Source of the DNA: Halobium salinum | GTDB taxonomy: Archaea; Halobacteriota; Halobacteria; Halobacteriales; Haloferacaceae | Direction: 5' to 3' | DNA: 64,000 nucleotides | Assembly (NCBI RefSeq): GCF_026586625.1 | Contig: NZ_JAODIW010000005.1 | Coordinates: 1-64,000, forward strand | Part shown: positions 14,523-24,426 of the stretch, one piece after another | Numbering within the stretch: position 1 is the stretch's first letter | Layout of the letters: every line of letters starts with the position of its first letter | Program-made: the position numbers and the translations under genes | The notes under the pieces: generated by a model | What the model was told of the DNA's origin: nothing | What the model saw: only the letters and a program-made list of their open reading frames with translations | Database searches by the model: none

Positions 14523-15021
14523 ACGCAGTCACCGCTCCCGATTCTCCGAATTGGGCTAGAAATCACATGTGCTACTCTCGGACACCCCGTTTCTATTCAG
14601 AGAATAGTGGACGGAGTGCATGTCACCACAAGAGAAATAATACGATCCATACGTGGCACGCGTATCGGTACTGAGTCACGCCGATCGCATCGGAACTAGA
14701 TTTTTTATGCTGATTAAATGTATATTCTATCTATGGTTGGTTTTCCTCCTAGTAGCCAACCACGCCAGAACCAGCAGTCGTCCTGAGAATCCGAAAATGA
14801 GTGACGAGCGTTATAGTCAAGAGAATTTCACCACCAACTCAAATCAGAACTCCAAAGAGTTCTAGCCCTCCCAGCAGAAAATCCCAGAAGCAATCACTCC
14901 CAGAAGAAACAGGGACGAACCAATCCAGAAAGCTTCGTTACGTGGGAGAGGGCTGTGAGCGTTTCCGTCTTATAGTCAAGTAAGTCATCGTGTGAATAAT
15001 TATTTCTGCTCTGCAGGACTC
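14523..15021. other. Gene-free, AT-rich spacer
   Basis: About 500 bases with no supportable gene. Base composition is clearly more AT-rich than surrounding genes, with runs such as ttttttatg near 14701. A repeat-like element follows immediately. Confidence 0.5.
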
Positions 15022-15122
15022 GCGGCATGACCATAGGAACTGACTCACGTCAAGGCTGGCCAGAACAAAGTTCGTTTCTTTCAGCGTCGGCCAGCCTGAC
15101 TCAGCCCTGCAGACAGAGCGTG
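15022..15122. repeat. Composite copy of the two recombination-site-like repeats found at 20 kb
   Basis: The first 28 bases (15022-15049) match the inner inverted repeat at 20284-20311 at 23 of 28 positions, sharing the block ctgactcacg. The last 48 bases (15075-15122) match the outer repeat at 19998-20046, sharing tttctttca, tgactcagc and agacagagcgtg with one gap. Between them lie 9-base inverted arms, aggctggcc at 15053-15061 and ggccagcct at 15089-15097. The two halves keep the same relative orientation as at 20 kb but are only 25 bases apart. A small membrane-protein gene starts 100 bases downstream. Confidence 0.6.
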
Positions 15123-15222
15123 TATCTAGTGCGGAAAGAACTCGAAAGATGTACGCAACGGGAAGAACTGTTAGTGTAACCCACTAGAAAAGAATTAACC
15201 CACATCCGATACAAGCACCTGT

Positions 15223-18460: not shown

Positions 18461-18802
18461 TTATTCTTCGGTCGGTGCCTCGAGATAGGTCTCAAGCTCG
18501 TCGACGACGGTTTGGACGAACGATTCCTTGAGTCGCCCCTGCCGTCGGACAATCGCGGCGTGCTTCGGCGACGCGACTGCCCACGGTGAGGCGTAGCTCT
18601 GCCTGGGCATCCCGCCCTCAACCCAGTCGGCGTCGTCGAGGGAGATGCCCTCGTCATGGGGTGTCGTCGTCAGCGTGACCGTCATGTACTCTTCGTCGCC
18701 GAACGGATGGCTGTCGTTGTTCAAAATCAGCCAGGGACGCGGGTTCTCACCCGACTTGAACGGATCGGGTCCCCAGACGACGTCCCCGCGCTGGTAGCTC
18801 AT
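18461..18802 (-). CDS. PemK/MazF-like type II toxin
   Basis: A 113-residue protein with the MazF-type opening RGDVVWGPDPF, in which the RGDVVW strand begins the SH3-like barrel, then NPRPWLILNNDSHP, a strand MTVTLTTTP and a SYASPWAVASPKH region. These match haloarchaeal PemK-like ribonuclease toxins. MazF-type toxins cleave RNA; cleavage specificity is unknown. Its start overlaps the stop of the upstream helix-turn-helix gene by four bases (ATGA), the typical arrangement of a toxin behind its antitoxin or regulator. Confidence 0.8.
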   Translation of the reverse strand: MSYQRGDVVWGPDPFKSGENPRPWLILNNDSHPFGDEEYMTVTLTTTPHDEGISLDDADWVEGGMPRQSYASPWAVASPKHAAIVRRQGRLKESFVQTVVDELETYLEAPTEE

Positions 18803-19164
18803 TCAGTCGCCTCGTCCTCGTCGTCGACGGCGTGCTCCAACCACTCGTCCATGTCTTCCTCGCCGAAGCGGTCGTTGGCCGCCCGCGTACTCTCGAGCAT
18901 GCTGGCGTACGCGGCGACATCGTCGGCTTCACCGAGCGCCCAGTAGGTGCCCTTGTGCCGGACGAGACCCCGATCCTCGAGTCGAGAGAGGACGACGCTG
19001 ATGCTCCCGGCTTTCACGTCGGTCGCATCCCGAATCTCGCTCTGGGTGAACGCCTGATCGGGATGGGCGGCGAGGAATCGCATCACGCGATCGGCGTTCG
19101 TCTCCCCAGAGTGCTGGAGGCGGTCCTCGGGGGAGGATTCGAACGTCTCGATGTCGATGGGCAT
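18799..19164 (-). CDS. Winged-helix (MarR-like) regulator, probable antitoxin partner
   Basis: A 121-residue acidic protein from the Met of MPIDIETFESSPEDRL; the frame is open further but those residues are unlike the family. Residues about 28-80 form a winged helix: ADRVMRFLAAHPDQAFTQSE, then DVKAGSISVVLSRLEDRGLV as recognition helix and wing. The C-terminus (FGEEDMDEWLEHAVDDED) is strongly acidic, as in toxin-neutralising tails. Coupled by ATGA to the MazF-like gene, it probably represses the pair and neutralises the toxin. Confidence 0.75.
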   Translation of the reverse strand: MPIDIETFESSPEDRLQHSGETNADRVMRFLAAHPDQAFTQSEIRDATDVKAGSISVVLSRLEDRGLVRHKGTYWALGEADDVAAYASMLESTRAANDRFGEEDMDEWLEHAVDDEDEATE

Positions 19165-19258
19165 ATGTATTGCTTTGTCGCTGTATGTATTAGATGTATC
19201 GACGTATTTTAAGCCAGTTCGTTCTCGCTGATCGACTGGGAGTGGTGGGCCGAGCGGG

Positions 19259-19588
19259 CTATCCATCGACGACGTGCGTCTCGAGGTCCCGTGTCCAGTA
19301 CGTCGCGGGGCCACCGGGGTTACAGCGAGTACACAGCTGCAACGGCCCTTCGAGATGCCCGAGTTCGACACGGAATCGCGTCAGTGCAGTGAGCGTATCG
19401 ACGACGAGACCACAGCCATCGCAAACGTGGTAATCACGCTCGTCGGGGTCGGGCCGCGCTTGGACGGCACAGGCGACACAGATCTGGTGGGTGACCCGCT
19501 CGTCTTCCCCCCACGTATACGCTGTTCCTGCCGTGAATCCAGGTGCTGCATCACAGAAGGCACAGCCGGAGAGCGTCTGCTGCATCAC
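19259..19588 (-). CDS. Cysteine-rich zinc-binding protein (DUF7558-like)
   Basis: A 109-residue protein with four paired cysteine motifs: CAFCDAAP near residue 9, CVACAVQ near 38, CDGCGLVVD near 56 and CTRC near 86. The layout suggests two zinc sites. It resembles a haloarchaeal family often found on plasmids and integrated elements. Function unknown; a role in nucleic-acid or protein binding is only inferred from the fingers. Its start overlaps the stop of the upstream gene by four bases. Confidence 0.65.
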   Translation of the reverse strand: MMQQTLSGCAFCDAAPGFTAGTAYTWGEDERVTHQICVACAVQARPDPDERDYHVCDGCGLVVDTLTALTRFRVELGHLEGPLQLCTRCNPGGPATYWTRDLETHVVDG

Positions 19589-19875: not shown

Positions 19876-19994
19876 GTAAATTCACGCTCCGGCACGCTCG
19901 CAGGCGCGCCTCGCGCCTTGGGCGTCGACAGACATGCCTCTTTACTGGGGAGGACCTGGCATACTCACTGCTTCGGAGAATGGATCAAATTCAC

Positions 19995-20050
19995 GACTTT
20001 CTTTCACCGTAGTTGTCGGTGACTCAGCTTCTAGAGACAGAGCGTGAGTC
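19995..20050 (+). repeat. Outer inverted repeat, left copy (56 bases)
   Basis: This 56-base sequence recurs in inverted orientation at 22501-22556 with 55 of 56 positions identical. It contains a dyad tcaccg-7-cggtga (20004-20009 and 20017-20022), the shape of a tyrosine-recombinase core site, then tgactcagc and agacagagcgtg. It bounds the left side of a 2562-base segment carrying a recombinase and VapBC. Confidence 0.8.
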
Positions 20051-20112
20051 TCCGAAAAGCGTTGAGCGAGAATAGACAGAAAAGCTATAATCAGTCGAAA
20101 GGAGCCTTCGAT

Positions 20113-20250
20113 GTGTACCTCCTATTCGGTTCGCCTTCGACTGGTCCAGATATACTTCTAATCGGCGTTTTTTGGATTCTGGTAGCCCTCATGTTCGTCG
20201 GGATTTTACGGATTCTCGTTAGGAGATGGTCGTCACGGAACGGGGAATAA
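20113..20250 (+). CDS. Possible small single-helix membrane protein (45 aa)
   Basis: From a GTG the frame gives 45 residues with one hydrophobic helix, DILLIGVFWILVALMFVGIL, followed by a basic tail RILVRRWSSRNGE. That is a positive-inside membrane pattern. An earlier ATG at 20044 is in frame but lies inside the inverted repeat. No family is recognised. It sits between the outer and inner left repeats. Confidence 0.35.
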   Translation: MYLLFGSPSTGPDILLIGVFWILVALMFVGILRILVRRWSSRNGE

Positions 20251-20283
20251 CGGAATCGTCACCGTCCACGTATTCCTGTAGTT

Positions 20284-20311
20284 GCGGCACAACTCTAGGA
20301 GCTGACTCACG
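20284..20311 (+). repeat. Inner inverted repeat, left copy (28 bases)
   Basis: These 28 bases recur inverted at 21184-21211 with one mismatch (at 20291) and immediately flank the recombinase gene. The shared block ctctaggagctgactcacg is also related to the outer repeat (ctctagaagctgagtcacc), so inner and outer repeats look like diverged versions of one site. Confidence 0.75.
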
Positions 20312-20342
20312 TAGGTTCCGCGTGAAAATAAAGGCCGAATCG

Positions 20343-21143
20343 CTACCGGGAGGAGTGAACTGATCGGAGCGCTCGACGCGTGGCCTCGGCAGTTCCATTG
20401 AGATACGTCTCGGCGGTTGCGAGCTTCTCCCAGCCCATGAACGACTGAAGTGGGAGTCCCGTCAGTCCGCGTGAGGCGTGGAACGTGCTCGCGGTCGCAC
20501 GAAGTGCATGCGGGTAGACCCGGTCGCTGTCGAGTCCGTCAGCCACTTCGGCCGCGTCCGTCACGCGCCGATTGACGCTCCCGCGACAGTGTGGGTATGA
20601 TTCCAAGTCCTCGAAGAACCGCTCGATCTCCATCTCGACCCGTATGTCGAAATCGAACGGGATTGCACGGGCACCCGCAGCAGTTTTCGGCGACCACCGC
20701 GTCGAAAGCGCCTGTTCAACGGATAGCTCCTCGTTGTGTTCGGCGATGGAGTGAGCGAGCCTCCGACAGTATCCGCATGGTCCGTCGTCAGTACGGCCCT
20801 TCTGACACCGATCGAATGCCGGGATGCGGATGACTTTCTCGCGCCAGTCGACCCATTGTTCGGTCATGTGAGTGACTTCGCCGGCTCGCATCCCGAGCCG
20901 CCCGGTCGCGAAGATCACGAACCGCGCGAGACTGGCGTACGGTTCCTCGAGTCGCCGGGCTCCTTCGAGGAGCAGTTGGAACTGACGGTCGGTCAACGCA
21001 TCCTCTTTCGAGTTCAGAACCTGTTCCGAGCCGATCAGTCGATCACGCCAGAACCCATCCTGAGATTCACTAGTGTTCGCGGGGTCGACTTTCGAGCTAC
21101 CGTGTCGTCTCTCGTCTGCTCTCCCGCTCGATGTGAACCGCAT
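20343..21143 (-). CDS. Tyrosine recombinase (phage-integrase family)
   Basis: A 266-residue protein with the catalytic domain of a tyrosine recombinase. Visible active-site residues are Arg86 in GRLGMRAGEV, a probable Lys153 in SPKTAAGARAIP, His212 and Arg215 in HALR, Trp238 in MGWEK (third His/Trp position) and nucleophile Tyr247 in ETYLNG. All key residues are present, so the enzyme should be active. A CxxC pair (GPCGYCRR) is inserted near residue 123, as in many haloarchaeal integrases. The N-terminal arm-binding domain is very short. The gene is enclosed by 28-base and then 56-base inverted repeats, which suggests inversion or resolution rather than classical integration. Confidence 0.87.
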   Translation of the reverse strand: MRFTSSGRADERRHGSSKVDPANTSESQDGFWRDRLIGSEQVLNSKEDALTDRQFQLLLEGARRLEEPYASLARFVIFATGRLGMRAGEVTHMTEQWVDWREKVIRIPAFDRCQKGRTDDGPCGYCRRLAHSIAEHNEELSVEQALSTRWSPKTAAGARAIPFDFDIRVEMEIERFFEDLESYPHCRGSVNRRVTDAAEVADGLDSDRVYPHALRATASTFHASRGLTGLPLQSFMGWEKLATAETYLNGTAEATRRALRSVHSSR

Positions 21144-21183
21144 TGTATTCTCAAATACGAGAGTTCATACAACTAGGTTTCCT

Positions 21184-21211
21184 CGTGAGTCAGCTCCTAG
21201 AGTCGTGCCGC
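21184..21211 (-). repeat. Inner inverted repeat, right copy (28 bases)
   Basis: Inverted partner of 20284-20311 with 27 of 28 positions identical. It lies 41 bases upstream of the recombinase start codon, so any flipping between the two copies would invert the recombinase gene together with its promoter-proximal sequence. Confidence 0.75.
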
Positions 21212-21257
21212 GAGTGTAGCGCTGGAATTCCTAACAGATTGAGTTCATATTGGAATT

Positions 21258-21289
21258 GGCGTGACCAACTTAGAGGGTAAGTTCAGCAG
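21258..21289 (+). repeat. Direct repeat left of the VapBC pair
   Basis: The 32 bases starting ggcgtgaccaac share ggcgtg, aac, tagagggt and agttcagca with 22103-22134, in the same orientation and spacing. A short dyad (gtgaccaa at 21261-21268 with ttggttac at 21293-21300) allows a hairpin around it. The two copies bracket the toxin-antitoxin genes. Confidence 0.55.
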
Positions 21290-21329
21290 ACTTTGGTTAC
21301 ACTAGTGGGCACAGTAGCAAACTTTACCC

Positions 21330-21345
21330 AGTAGTATGTTCTACT
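21330..21345 (+). promoter_or_regulatory. Candidate operator dyad before the VapB-like gene
   Basis: Perfect 5-base arms agtag and ctact separated by 6 bases end 8 bases before the antitoxin ATG. Ribbon-helix-helix antitoxins usually bind such short dyads to repress their own operon. Only the symmetry and position support this. Confidence 0.35.
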
Positions 21346-21352
21346 AAATGGC

Positions 21353-21628
21353 ATGGCCACGTCGGTAAAGATGGACGACGACACCAAATCCCGTCTCGAA
21401 CGGTTACAGGCCGAGATTCGGCTAAAGACGGGAAAGCGAGTGACGCAGCAGGAAATCTTGGCACGGCTCGTCGAGCATGCCATCGAGTCCAAGGCAGACC
21501 TCATCGACTCGTTCCGCGAGAAGCGTGTTCCGCTTGCTGAATCCGAGCGCGAGAAGTTCCACGAGGGGATGGTCTCGTCCGGAGTCACGACGACCGAGGA
21601 AGACATCGACGACGTGCTGTACGGATGA
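21353..21628 (+). CDS. VapB-like antitoxin (ribbon-helix-helix type)
   Basis: A 91-residue protein. The N-terminus MATSVKMDDDTKSRLERLQA has the beta-strand then helix of a ribbon-helix-helix DNA-binding fold, followed by TGKRVTQQEILARLVEHAI as the second helix. The acidic C-terminus (TTEEDIDDVLYG) is a typical toxin-binding tail. Its stop overlaps the start of the PIN-domain gene by four bases. It should neutralise the toxin and autoregulate the operon through the dyad just upstream. Confidence 0.8.
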   Translation: MATSVKMDDDTKSRLERLQAEIRLKTGKRVTQQEILARLVEHAIESKADLIDSFREKRVPLAESEREKFHEGMVSSGVTTTEEDIDDVLYG

Positions 21629-22053
21629 GTGTCTTCGTCGATACTGGCGTGTTCTTTGCGCACCACGATACGGATGCTGACCGACACGACCAAGCCGTCA
21701 GTGCATTCGACGACTTGTTCGACGGGGAGTTCGGACAACCGTACACGAATGACTACGTTTTCGACGAGACTGTGACGCTTACGCGTGCTCGAACGGGTTC
21801 GTTCGAGGCTGCAGATACTGTCGCCAGTCGCATTCTTGGAGAAGACCCGTTTCCGCGTGTCTTCGAGATGATTCACGTTGAGCCAGATGATGTACGCGCG
21901 TCACTGGAAACGTTTCGTCGATACAACGACCACGATCTCAGTTTCACTGACGCGTCAATAGTCACTCTGTGTGAGTCACGTGGCATAGATGCAGTGTTGA
22001 GCTTCGACACAGATTTCGACGGACTCGTTGACCGTATCGAACCAGGGTACTAG
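21625..22053 (+). CDS. VapC-like PIN-domain ribonuclease toxin
   Basis: A 142-residue PIN domain. Acidic active-site residues are visible: Asp6 in VFVDTGVFFA, Glu near residue 50 in YVFDETVTL, Asp in HDLSFTDASIV near residue 112 and Asp in VLSFDTDFD near 132. Together they form the metal-binding site of VapC-type RNases. It is complete in length and coupled to the antitoxin by an ATGA overlap. The pair lies inside the outer inverted repeats, where it could act as an addiction module keeping the cassette in the genome. Confidence 0.87.
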   Translation: MSVFVDTGVFFAHHDTDADRHDQAVSAFDDLFDGEFGQPYTNDYVFDETVTLTRARTGSFEAADTVASRILGEDPFPRVFEMIHVEPDDVRASLETFRRYNDHDLSFTDASIVTLCESRGIDAVLSFDTDFDGLVDRIEPGY

Positions 22054-22102
22054 TGACTCACCGGGAGTGTCTTACTCAACCCATACAAAAGTTGTCAGAT
22101 GT

Positions 22103-22137
22103 GGCGTGCTGAACGTAGAGGGTGAGTTCAGCACGCC
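22103..22137 (+). repeat. Direct repeat right of VapBC, perfect 12-base hairpin
   Basis: The sequence begins ggcgtgctgaac and ends gttcagcacgcc, a perfect 12-base stem around an 11-base loop containing tagagggtga. The first 32 bases align with 21258-21289 left of the toxin-antitoxin genes. It could be a transcription terminator for vapC or the subterminal hairpin of a mobile unit. Confidence 0.55.
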
Positions 22138-22236
22138 TACCGCTCTTCGGTTCACACTGGATGAGTTGAAGAGACCGATAGGAAGAGCGCACGTGTCTCG
22201 CAGAAAGTATTTGTCTCACGAATCGGCATAGTGCAT

Positions 22237-22377
22237 ATGGACACCTCACTCGCCCTTGCCGTAGTCGTCGTTTTAGGACTAATTGCTATAATAGTGGAGA
22301 TAGGACTCGAACTGAAGCAATATCTAAACAACCGAAGTGAGCAATCCGACTCGAGTACGGCTGAATCAAATACGTAA
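22237..22377 (+). CDS. Small single-helix membrane protein (46 aa)
   Basis: An ATG frame of 46 codons reads MDTSLALAVVVVLGLIAIIV, a membrane helix, then a charged tail EIGLELKQYLNNRSEQSDSS. The short N-terminus and hydrophobic helix fit a small membrane anchor protein. A second one-helix frame lies at the other end of the cassette, near the left outer repeat. Function unknown. Confidence 0.4.
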   Translation: MDTSLALAVVVVLGLIAIIVEIGLELKQYLNNRSEQSDSSTAESNT

Positions 22378-22500
22378 TTCCTCTGTATCTATGATTCCGA
22401 CTCTCCTCTACAGATGACGACCACCCAGTGACCGACTTGCGCCCTGAGTTCAGCACGACGAAACTGGCAGAGCTGCGAGACGTCGTGTCTCCTGGCGATA

Positions 22501-22556
22501 GACTTACGCTCTGTCTCTAGAAGCTGAGTCACCGACAACTACGGTGAAAGAAAGTC
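22501..22556 (-). repeat. Outer inverted repeat, right copy (56 bases)
   Basis: Inverted partner of 19995-20050 with 55 of 56 positions identical; the single difference is in gacttacgct against gactcacgct. Identity stops sharply on the cassette-internal side. The near-perfect conservation implies recent duplication or continued recombination between the copies. Confidence 0.8.
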
Positions 22557-22627
22557 TCGAATCAGCCCTATCCTCTGAAGCTGTGAGACCCCAATCGTCA
22601 AACCGGAAGACACCGATACAGTCTGTA

Positions 22628-23022: not shown

Positions 23023-24297
23023 CTATGAACGACCCCCACCCACTAGCCGTTTCGCCTTCTCCCAGATCGACTCACCAGCTGATCCTGGCTCGTCAGCAAC
23101 CTCCTGATCTCGGGCGGTCTGCTCTTGCACGGTTGACGCGGATGATGCTCTCAACTCGGCGATTTCCGCTTCGAGAGACTCGATTTGTTCCTGCTGTTGT
23201 TCGATGGTTTCCGCCTGCTGTTCGAGTTTCGCGGACAAAATCTGGTTCTGCTCTTTGAGATAAACACGCTCGCGACTATCCAACTGCTCGTCGGCTCCCG
23301 TCTGTGGCGTCCCAATTGACTCATTCACCTCTGTCGTGGGTGGCTGCTTGGGCTGACCTCTCGTATCGGAATGGTCGCTCTCTTCTTCAGTAGGTTCGAA
23401 GAAGTCCGTCGTGCTCCCGATAGCGCGCTCGATGGTTCGCTCACCGTAGGTCGCCCCATCAGCGAAGTGCTGTTCGTCCCACTTCGGGCGGATCAGTCCG
23501 GACTCACGAAACAGACGGTCGACACGCGTTGGGTCGCCGCCAGTCCAGAACGCAAGCAGGCAACAGAGCGCCATATCAGCTTCTGACTGGCTCTCGTAGC
23601 CATGGATGTCCCCACCCCACAGTCGGTCGAACTTCTCGCCGTTGGCGGCGGTCTGGGCCTTCTCGATGAGTTCCTCGTCAGTAAGATCGACATCTCCCGT
23701 CGGTGACTTCGTGGTACCCGTCGCCTGTTTTGGTTCCCCGCTGGCCATCGACGGCTTCCGGACGTATTCACGATGAACCTCCGCAAGTGCCTCCTGTCGT
23801 GCTTCGACCGTTTGCGGCGTGACATCGACGCGATCGCCAGTCATTGTGAAGAATCGCGCCGAGTCGTACATTTCCACGCTTCCCGTTCGATTCCGGCCCT
23901 CGGGTAACTCGCCCTCAACGAGGACGTGGAAGCCGGTTCCTGACGGTGATACCTCGGTGTAGGAGTCGAGTCGATTGACGATGTCTCGAGCATCGTCGTC
24001 TACGTGTCCTGTTTCAGGGTCACGGCAGTCGTCAAGGTCGACACCGACGAACGGATCGTTGTCGGTGAACACAAAGCCAAGTCCATCCGCTTCGTCGTTT
24101 TGAGCGTACTCGACTGCAGTCTCGAAGTCGGTCCATGTGTCTCGATCAGTCGATGACGCGAAACCACCGGTCCGGGGTGTGATGGGAATCTTCGTCGGCT
24201 TTCCATCGCGGGTTTGCTCGTTCCAACAGACCCACTGGTCACGTTCGACGAGCGCAGTCGGCAACACCCCTCTGTCGATGTGTTCTCGTTCACTCAT
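23023..24297 (-). CDS. NrS-1-like primase-polymerase, putative replication initiator
   Basis: A 424-residue protein when started at MSEREHIDRGVLP. The N-terminal 160 residues carry the archaeo-eukaryotic primase pattern: Asp87 and Asp89 in FVGVDLDDC, His124 in SGTGFHVLVEG, and a third acidic position near 155 in FFTMTGD. This resembles the phage NrS-1 polymerase group, with WVCWNEQTRDGKPTKIP at the front. A helical domain (residues about 200-300, with CCLLAFWTGGDPTRVDRLFR) follows, then a coiled coil (about 345-400, with QQAETIEQQQEQIESLEAEI). The gene is directly preceded by iteron-like repeats, supporting a role as plasmid or virus replication protein. Confidence 0.75.
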   Translation of the reverse strand: MSEREHIDRGVLPTALVERDQWVCWNEQTRDGKPTKIPITPRTGGFASSTDRDTWTDFETAVEYAQNDEADGLGFVFTDNDPFVGVDLDDCRDPETGHVDDDARDIVNRLDSYTEVSPSGTGFHVLVEGELPEGRNRTGSVEMYDSARFFTMTGDRVDVTPQTVEARQEALAEVHREYVRKPSMASGEPKQATGTTKSPTGDVDLTDEELIEKAQTAANGEKFDRLWGGDIHGYESQSEADMALCCLLAFWTGGDPTRVDRLFRESGLIRPKWDEQHFADGATYGERTIERAIGSTTDFFEPTEEESDHSDTRGQPKQPPTTEVNESIGTPQTGADEQLDSRERVYLKEQNQILSAKLEQQAETIEQQQEQIESLEAEIAELRASSASTVQEQTARDQEVADEPGSAGESIWEKAKRLVGGGRS

Positions 24298-24426
24298 ACT
24301 CAGTAACTCCAATTGCGAGCCACCGCTCTCTGCTCGCTGACAAAATCCCCTTTTGAAACGCGCTTCAGCGCAACCTCCCGCCCAACGGCAACCCCCTTCT
24401 CTATATTAGTTGGTTTTCGGCTTCCG

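Follow-up and report, generated by a model that had tools for sequence, protein, structure and literature searches.

The stretch of DNA analyzed here (hereinafter, the window) comprises 64,000 nucleotides of the haloarchaeon Halobium salinum (positions 1 to 64,000 of contig NZ_JAODIW010000005.1, assembly GCF_026586625.1; the genome, denoted G000, amounts to 4.46 Mb in 14 contigs) and contains a tyrosine recombinase gene enclosed by two nested pairs of inverted repeats, together with a VapBC toxin-antitoxin module. Both repeat pairs had been reported in a preliminary description of the locus and are confirmed: 55 of the 56 bases are identical in the outer pair (19995-20050 and 22501-22556), and 27 of 28 in the inner pair (20284-20311 and 21184-21211). 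As also proposed there, the two pairs are related, with GACTCAGCTYCTAGAG or a close variant common to both; the octamer that follows this sequence differs between the pairs (AGAGCGTG/A in the outer one vs GTGCCGCG/A in the inner one). The outer likeness reaches 88 bp, with 77 of 88 positions identical (19964-20051 and 22500-22587). The window contains 38 inverted pairs of exact 18-mers less than 4 kb apart, compared with 0-3 in 20 shuffles (2-mer blocks), and the 88-bp arm has 35 clustered matches in G000 at E<=10 (self included), so that these repeats are not unique to the locus. In terms of the A and B sites defined below, the features are the following:

19964..20038, plus strand: left outer frame, with the extended likeness, the TTTCTTTCACC motif, GACTCAGCTT and the A-site outer half-site CTAGAGAC
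20039..20046, plus strand: left A-site octamer AGAGCGTG, the putative crossover region
20039..20290, no strand: cassette 1 (A to B), with an open reading frame (ORF) at 20044-20250
20283..20290, minus strand: B-site octamer GTGCCGCA on the 3' side of the recombinase gene, with the frame extending to about 20331
20343..21143, minus strand: tyrosine recombinase, 266 amino acids (aa), PF00589
21197..21212, plus strand: B site on the 5' side of the recombinase gene, with the outer half-site, the octamer GTGCCGCG at 21205-21212 and a degenerate frame
21205..22512, no strand: cassette 2 (B to A), with VapBC and a 46-aa ORF (22237-22377, plus strand) containing one hydrophobic stretch
21262..21288, plus strand: P-like site TGACCAACTTAGAGGGTAAGTTCAGCA just upstream of VapBC, resembling the P sites of the second system described below
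21353..21628, plus strand: VapB-like antitoxin gene, 91 aa, named from its place before VapC
21625..22053, plus strand: VapC-like PIN toxin gene, 142 aa, PF01850 (E 1.1e-11)
22107..22133, plus strand: second P-like site TGCTGAACGTAGAGGGTGAGTTCAGCA, downstream of VapBC
22505..22512, minus strand: right A-site octamer AGAGCGTA, with one change
22513..22587, minus strand: right outer frame, an inverted copy of the left frame
15013..15131, minus strand: a further complete joint (A and B back to back) in the window

The gene between the inner repeats encodes, as originally proposed, a tyrosine recombinase: the frame is open, the product matches PF00589 (E 6.2e-8), and the R-K-H-R-H/W-Y catalytic set and the fold of this family are present. 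Among 30 aligned recombinases (three stop-bearing relatives were omitted), R86, K153, H212, R215, W238 and Y247, which we take to be the catalytic residues, are invariant, and a Cys113/Cys123/Cys126 motif is kept. The AlphaFold2 model (pTM 0.73) consists of the catalytic domain only (approximately residues 44-264), with low confidence for residues 1-43 and no core-binding domain. The best matches of this model in PDB are XerA (5hxy), Tn1549 Int, XerH and an integron integrase, with low global scores (TM to query of 0.41-0.56 across 18 hits at E<=0.001). In NCBIfam (E<=0.01), the only model reported for the window enzyme is XerA_Arch (24.6 bits vs a cutoff of 220); the integron-integrase model TIGR02249 is not reported, and even in a relative (L081) its match is weak (22.4 bits vs a cutoff of 265). 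By analogy with FimB and FimE, an enzyme without the usual N-terminal domain could plausibly act at sites of the kind found here. This gene is the only copy found in G000 at E<=0.01. When named genomes were scanned with 15 aligned recombinases, 61 loci were obtained; the named relatives of the enzyme are haloarchaeal, and the closest are those of Halomarina oriensis JCM 16495 (75% and 77% identity) and Halomarina rubra ZS-47-S (76% and 63%).

Two types of arms recur in the 14 regions of G000 that were fetched around arm matches and in 7 regions fetched subsequently, namely A (GACTCAGCTYCTAGAGAC AGAGCGTG) and B (GACTCAGCTYCTAGAGAC GTGCCGCG). Each site is a short dyad that consists of an outer half-site, a central octamer specific to the type, and an inner half-site; a first, 12-6-12 model of the dyad was replaced once the Halomarina sites showed the octamer-centered one. 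The short segments between sites, the cassettes, are each bounded by one A and one B, both pointing inward, and where two segments meet, their A and B form a back-to-back joint of about 119 bp. An array of six cassettes is located at G000:C13:533.4-537.6 kb (L018). After removal of duplicates, inward pairs are mixed A/B in 25 of 28 cases in the G000 regions and in 30 of 31 in the Halomarina regions (31 of 32 with duplicates kept), and all joints shorter than 130 bp are mixed, 13 of 13 and 23 of 23, respectively (25 Halomarina joints with duplicates kept); six Halomarina loci (L154, L159, L167, L169, L172 and L178) had been omitted beforehand for overlap. The spacing within joints is nearly fixed, at 93-94 bp in 11 of 13 in G000 and 80-82 bp in 22 of 23 in Halomarina, and five shuffles per set produced 0-1 joints and 0-4 inward pairs. 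A sequence-only model built from 16 joints (R1) gives 25 rows in G000 at E<=2e-10, corresponding to 23 distinct joints (two rows are reverse strands of others, and one spans 82 of the 107 positions), 16 of which are those from which R1 was built. At E<=1e-6, R1 has no match in the other 169 genomes of the family (strict filters, 23 candidates scored per genome), and at E<=0.01 it matches 12 places in H. oriensis and 18 in H. rubra, many of them only in part (best 1.6e-6); six other genomes, whose recombinases are more distant, have no match.

The arms of the G000 joints are inverted and partly complementary and could pair in single strand; the consensus fold of the 16 joints is weak (-3.9 kcal/mol, compensatory change in 1 of 12 pairs), and the candidate conserved hairpin was dropped on this account. 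At L209, L201, L214 and L080, the A/B joints span only 25-38 bp and lack the usual frames, which suggests that sites may do without the frame. A preference for insertion behind stop codons, a pattern noticed by eye, was dropped as well: 10 of 17 A ends and 9 of 13 B ends have long open frames ending toward them, without a clear A/B difference or a control.

Identical cassettes are found in different settings. Cassette 1 of the window, whose 68-aa product contains one predicted membrane segment (the start is uncertain), is 100% identical at 20042-20287 to L011:6266-6511 (G000:C13:928.2 kb), and the surroundings differ. The same holds for L013:6838-7179 and L014:5944-6285, also in G000, and a third cassette, 100% identical inside, is common to H. 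oriensis (C2:58466-58691) and the H. rubra hub (C14:309573-309798); for two of these three doubly placed cassettes, one copy lies beside a recombinase gene. Near-identical flanks also lead into different cassettes: a flank of 9,156 bp, 99.93% identical between H. oriensis and H. rubra, stops at an A site, and the cassettes beyond are unrelated, and a 1,324-bp stretch of another flank is 99.2% identical between the recombinase loci L077 (H. rubra) and L080 (H. oriensis), beyond which the former has one cassette and the latter two. In all 12 borders examined, identity changes at the site, and all are octamer-compatible. Six of them, all from Halomarina comparisons, show 94-100% identity on the side of the frame and 15-29% on that of the cassette; for the remaining six, the respective values are 43-61% (over 49 bp) and 100%. 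Most borders of the first group first differ at +5, just inside the octamer, and several of the second at -4 to -6, just outside it, which places the crossover in the octamer if one mechanism made all 12. A crossover at the TTTCTTTC core of the joint was considered first and rejected: the identity of shared cassettes stops at the site, and the 23 bp beside the core differ.

Altogether, the locus is quite probably the hub of a dispersed tyrosine-recombinase gene-cassette system in which exchange occurs between paired heterospecific sites, that is, an analogue of the integron and not an integron. The elements of this reading that come from comparison are the two site types, the arrays, the fixed spacing, the identical cassettes in different settings, the octamer-compatible borders and the co-occurrence with the recombinase; judging from the A/B pairing and the 12 borders, a cassette appears to end in two different sites and to be precisely replaced between them. 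Cleavage and joining by the recombinase (20343-21143) most likely take place within the octamers, and for that reason each site would recombine with others of its own type. A double exchange, A x A at one end and B x B at the other, would then replace a resident cassette by an incoming one and leave the neighbors undisturbed; the replacement would be clean because each cassette ends in two different sites, and the process would amount to recombinase-mediated cassette exchange in a natural form. A cassette plus its joint, flanked in a tandem array by direct copies of A or of B, could be excised as a circle and inserted at another place. At the hub, the inverted B pair around the recombinase and the inverted A pair around the unit would permit inversion of the gene or of the whole unit as a side reaction. 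What we infer from the sequences is that the window enzyme is the catalyst, that circles occur as intermediates and that there may be a benefit, for example in turning over small surface proteins.

The hub organization is conserved beyond the window. The recombinase genes of H. oriensis (L076) and H. rubra (L077) lie between inverted B sites, which in turn lie between inverted A sites; the order A-cassette-B-recombinase-B-cassette-A is common to the window, these two species and a third genome of their genus (G471). The B-recombinase-B arrangement, with inverted sites next to their own recombinase, is present in five hub copies in four genomes (the window, L076, L077, L080 and L189). The second copy of H. 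oriensis (L080) shows B-gene-B followed by a two-cassette array; next to this recombinase, at L080:60-186, the B site with its frame is present twice, as exact 58-bp direct repeats 69 bp apart. The Halomarina genome G471 (L189, 75% identity) shows the B pair together with outer A sites, of which the right one is weaker, and an extra B-like match lies in between. The 63% identical copy of H. rubra (L079) is located 122 bp from a contig end, and no such sites were seen there.

Directly adjoining the hub, and joined to it at an A site, are 11.6 kb of DNA that are 99.95% identical between H. oriensis and H. rubra. The wider sharing amounts to about 38 kb, split into three pieces that keep their order (C2:6519-45072 in H. 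oriensis and C14:307943-240949 in H. rubra); between the first and second pieces, H. rubra contains about 28 kb more. The recombinase modules of the two species are 94.5% identical and run the same way, and the shared flank is inverted relative to them; hence the gene faces opposite ways relative to the same neighbor. An inverted arrangement in related genomes was what the preliminary description had suggested looking for, and the opposite orientations are indeed suggestive; inversion between B sites is compatible with them but a simple flip is not proved because the far flanks and cassettes differ as well. That description had interpreted the locus as a candidate DNA-inversion cassette. As an invertible switch, the recombinase would flip itself (inner pair) or the whole unit (outer pair) and thereby control its neighbors or its own expression, as in phiCh1 or fim; the inverted pairs around gene and unit, the opposite orientations in the two Halomarina species and the recurrence of the hub layout in four genomes agree with such a device. 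The same sites, however, bound many cassettes at other loci, near-identical flanks differ in their cassettes and not only in orientation, and no switched promoter or split gene was identified, although no systematic search for these was made, so a switch seems very unlikely. The part of the original interpretation that stands is that the inverted pairs allow inversion; inversion does not appear to be the main function because the same sites border cassettes at many loci, the A and B octamers differ, and the recorded changes are cassette swaps. Inversion of the hub would be a permitted by-product, perhaps a regulatory one.

The distribution of sites and enzyme was assessed with a 60-bp model of the B half-site (R2, built from 59 sequences), which at E<=1e-4 detects sites in 8 genomes out of a sample of 392 from the order, with no more than 13 candidates per genome being scored. 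A recombinase of at least 75% identity is present in 4 of the 392 genomes, that of the window included, and all four (G000, G471, and G350 and G352, whose sequences identify them as H. rubra and H. oriensis, respectively) are among the eight site-bearing ones. The matches in these four are partly by construction because R2 was built from them; those in the other four are not. Sites are also found on two plasmids of Halomarina sp. BCD28. Viral vectors of the system were considered and set aside: two exact patterns have no match in viral_contigs, and blastn of the unit against phages gave no match; relatives of the enzyme are present on 15 viral contigs, none of which is among those listed by the arm scan. 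Among loci with related recombinases, L086:1304-1770 (Salinadaptatus halalkaliphilus) contains tandem repeats of ~75 bp upstream of the gene, and in Natronococcus pandeyae (L097:9855 and 12454) a long direct repeat, with copies about 2.6 kb apart that are possibly attL and attR, spans it. The existence of site-bearing genomes without the enzyme, along with conserved frames of about 50-60 bp that could seed recombination, would fit a reading in which the sites are passive and cassettes are swapped by homologous recombination or gene conversion between short repeats. This explanation is very unlikely given that the frames differ (43-61% over 49 bp) in six exchanges, leaving little shared border sequence, and that the two conserved octamers and the recombinase hub would remain without an explanation.

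Several observations weigh against a recombinase-driven cassette system. The whole scheme rests on genome comparison, with recombination itself deduced from it. The site scan gives 47-60 single matches per shuffled G000 set, compared with 95 observed, so that single matches are uncertain and only the pairing and spacing amount to proof. The site models were built in part from the genomes that they match. The 12 borders are not independent, four of them belonging to three related recombinase modules; the pairs were picked for near-identity; for some borders, the limiting differences on one side lie well away from the site; and several weaker alignments (82-91%) end away from sites. The right A octamer of the window carries one change, and two Halomarina loci, L173 and L181, carry the A octamer in a B-type frame, a combination that strict A x A and B x B exchange fails to explain. 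These mixed sites, at L173:1505 and L181:1548-2134 (L181 also has the converse combination), could result from an inverted cassette or from A x B exchange. With regard to the enzyme, the hub recombinase of H. rubra (L077) is interrupted, with ORFs of 101 and 140 aa, and the recombinase match of L080 covers 751 bases, a non-integer number of codons. Three of the four genomes with both enzyme and sites come from one genus; G453 (at least 13 sites), G385 (3), G441 (1) and G340 (1) lack a close recombinase, none being found at E<=1e-5 except for a 40-residue partial match in G340; and G190 and G324, with 55-59% identical enzymes, have no R2 match.

The cassettes are enriched in genes for small membrane proteins and lipoproteins. 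Among 61 cassettes (three counted twice and up to ten added by hand from earlier coordinates), ORFs of at least 45 aa were classed with a crude lipobox pattern and a hydropathy test, and 45 cassettes encode such proteins, a lipoprotein-like signal being present in 16 and just a membrane segment in the other 29; for length-matched segments outside cassettes at the same loci, 20 draws average 8.8 and reach at most 12. The longest ORF (at least 70 aa) runs from B to A in 26 cassettes and from A to B in 20, and because both directions are used, the cassettes probably carry their own promoters. VapBC, which had been proposed as a possible stabilizer of the unit, does not look dedicated to that role: it is 91% identical to a VapBC on a plasmid of Halobaculum marinum, and in the window it lies behind a different site type. 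The VapB-like protein matches no Pfam family above cutoff. The Halobaculum homologue (L218:2449) has a P-like site at the matching upstream place and, since P-like sites precede both VapBC copies, the A/B system and the P/Q system described next appear to share cargo. In the window, the P-like copies at 21262 and 22107 bracket VapBC as direct repeats, and a third, partial copy is located at 22424-22455. Just outside the unit, a PemK/MazF-like toxin (below the Pfam cutoff) and a MarR-like regulator are encoded side by side (18461-18802 and 18799-19371), and a nearby gene (23023-24312) encodes a protein with the NrS-1 polymerase HBD domain (PF22763), which may point to plasmid or provirus surroundings.

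A second two-site system was detected among more distant relatives. An inverted flank-against-flank comparison gave nominal p<0.05 at 5 of 33 loci (L084, L091, L140, L078 and L087), compared with an expectation of 1 to 2; L084, L087, L093 and L096 (p 0.066 for the last two) have in common a motif of the TTCAGCA or TGCAGCA type. With up to three mismatches in eight genomes, TGCTGAATAGAGRGCGYGTATTC has 27 matches in genome G083 and 2-8 in each of the others; the reversed control has 0 in all eight. The recombinase of G083 is about 49% identical to the window enzyme, and the fetched regions contain 71 sites (0 in three shuffles) of two types, P (AGAGGGTG) and Q (AG[AG]GCGCG). The joints are mixed P/Q in 20 of 20 cases, with a spacing of 61-63 bp, and the inward pairs in 22 of 23, the exception being a 4-bp artefact; 17 of 24 cassettes contain membrane or lipobox ORFs, compared with at most 8 in 20 control draws. 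Long P/Q arrays are seen in G083 (L249-L255), for example at C2:118220-121971. It seems reasonably likely that these systems form a haloarchaeal class of their own that evolved independently of integrons, with catalytic-domain-only, cysteine-motif recombinases, a heterospecific pair of double-stranded sites specific to each clade, and small, mostly membrane protein and lipoprotein genes exchanged among dozens of chromosomal and plasmid frames, and that the A/B and P/Q systems share cassettes, as suggested by the P-type sites inside the A/B cassette with VapBC.

The dispersal of units with inverted ends of similar sequence might alternatively indicate non-autonomous transposons, similar to miniature inverted-repeat transposable elements (MITEs), with long terminal inverted repeats that are mobilized by an unrelated transposase. 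This is highly improbable considering that the two end types are nearly always paired, tandem units have fixed joints, unit contents differ, identity breaks within the repeat rather than at its outer edge, and no target duplication was seen by eye at the four units compared. The preliminary description had foreseen that the repeats might prove to be ends of a common insertion element; they are indeed ends of dispersed units, but the units belong to a recombinase-associated cassette system. A diverged true integron, with IntI and attC sites, is hardly credible: small-cassette arrays bounded by recombination sites beside a tyrosine recombinase, arrays without the enzyme, the weak TIGR02249 match of L081 and the potential single-strand pairing of the G000 joint arms speak for it, and against it stand the lack of an integron-integrase model for the window enzyme at E<=0.01, the weak consensus fold of the joints, the two site types and the longest ORFs in both directions.

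To our knowledge, integrons are the only gene-cassette system known. If the cassette reading is correct, a second system that is archaeal, non-IntI and based on two-site logic would suggest that modular gene shuffling arose more than once; the turnover of many small membrane and lipoprotein genes in haloarchaea would be explained, and the sites could provide natural heterospecific pairs for archaeal genome engineering. Judging by titles and the beginnings of abstracts, such arrays are not described in the open-access full texts that the searches listed, a scope that leaves out most subscription journals and bioRxiv preprints.

Among the known systems, the dif site of Xer recombinases is a short dyad with a central spacer. 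The sites described here share this design, and XerA (5hxy) is among the best matches of the predicted fold; unlike Xer/dif and XerA, however, the modeled enzyme has no core-binding domain, there are many sites, and the NCBIfam XerA match is far below cutoff. In the haloarchaeal virus phiCh1, a recombinase gene lies beside inverted sites and produces variation of a virus surface protein; we know of no dispersed cassettes associated with it. The phiCh1 inversion system is named in titles in the reference list of PMC8371274. The hub resembles it in that a haloarchaeal recombinase gene adjoins inverted sites. The R64 shufflon employs the tyrosine recombinase Rci and several related inverted sites with a short conserved core. 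The system described here is similar in these respects, but the shufflon inverts local segments of one gene, whereas here whole cassettes are shared between loci and species. Integrons, with IntI, attI and attC, are reported in archaeal metagenome-assembled genomes (Ghaly et al. 2022, PMC9668308). The common features are small cassettes, tandem arrays bounded by recombination sites, a recombinase beside the array and enzyme-free arrays. In contrast to integrons, the window enzyme has no IntI model hit and does not qualify as IntI, each cassette ends in two site types with different octamers, there are many separate loci per genome, ORFs run in either direction, and the recombinase lies between inverted sites, with a B site on each side. 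Finally, recombinase-mediated cassette exchange is a laboratory technique that uses heterospecific lox or FRT sites. The logic is the same, with two incompatible inverted sites and replacement of the intervening segment by double exchange; unlike the technique, the system described here appears to be natural and genome-wide and to possess its own catalytic-domain-only recombinase.

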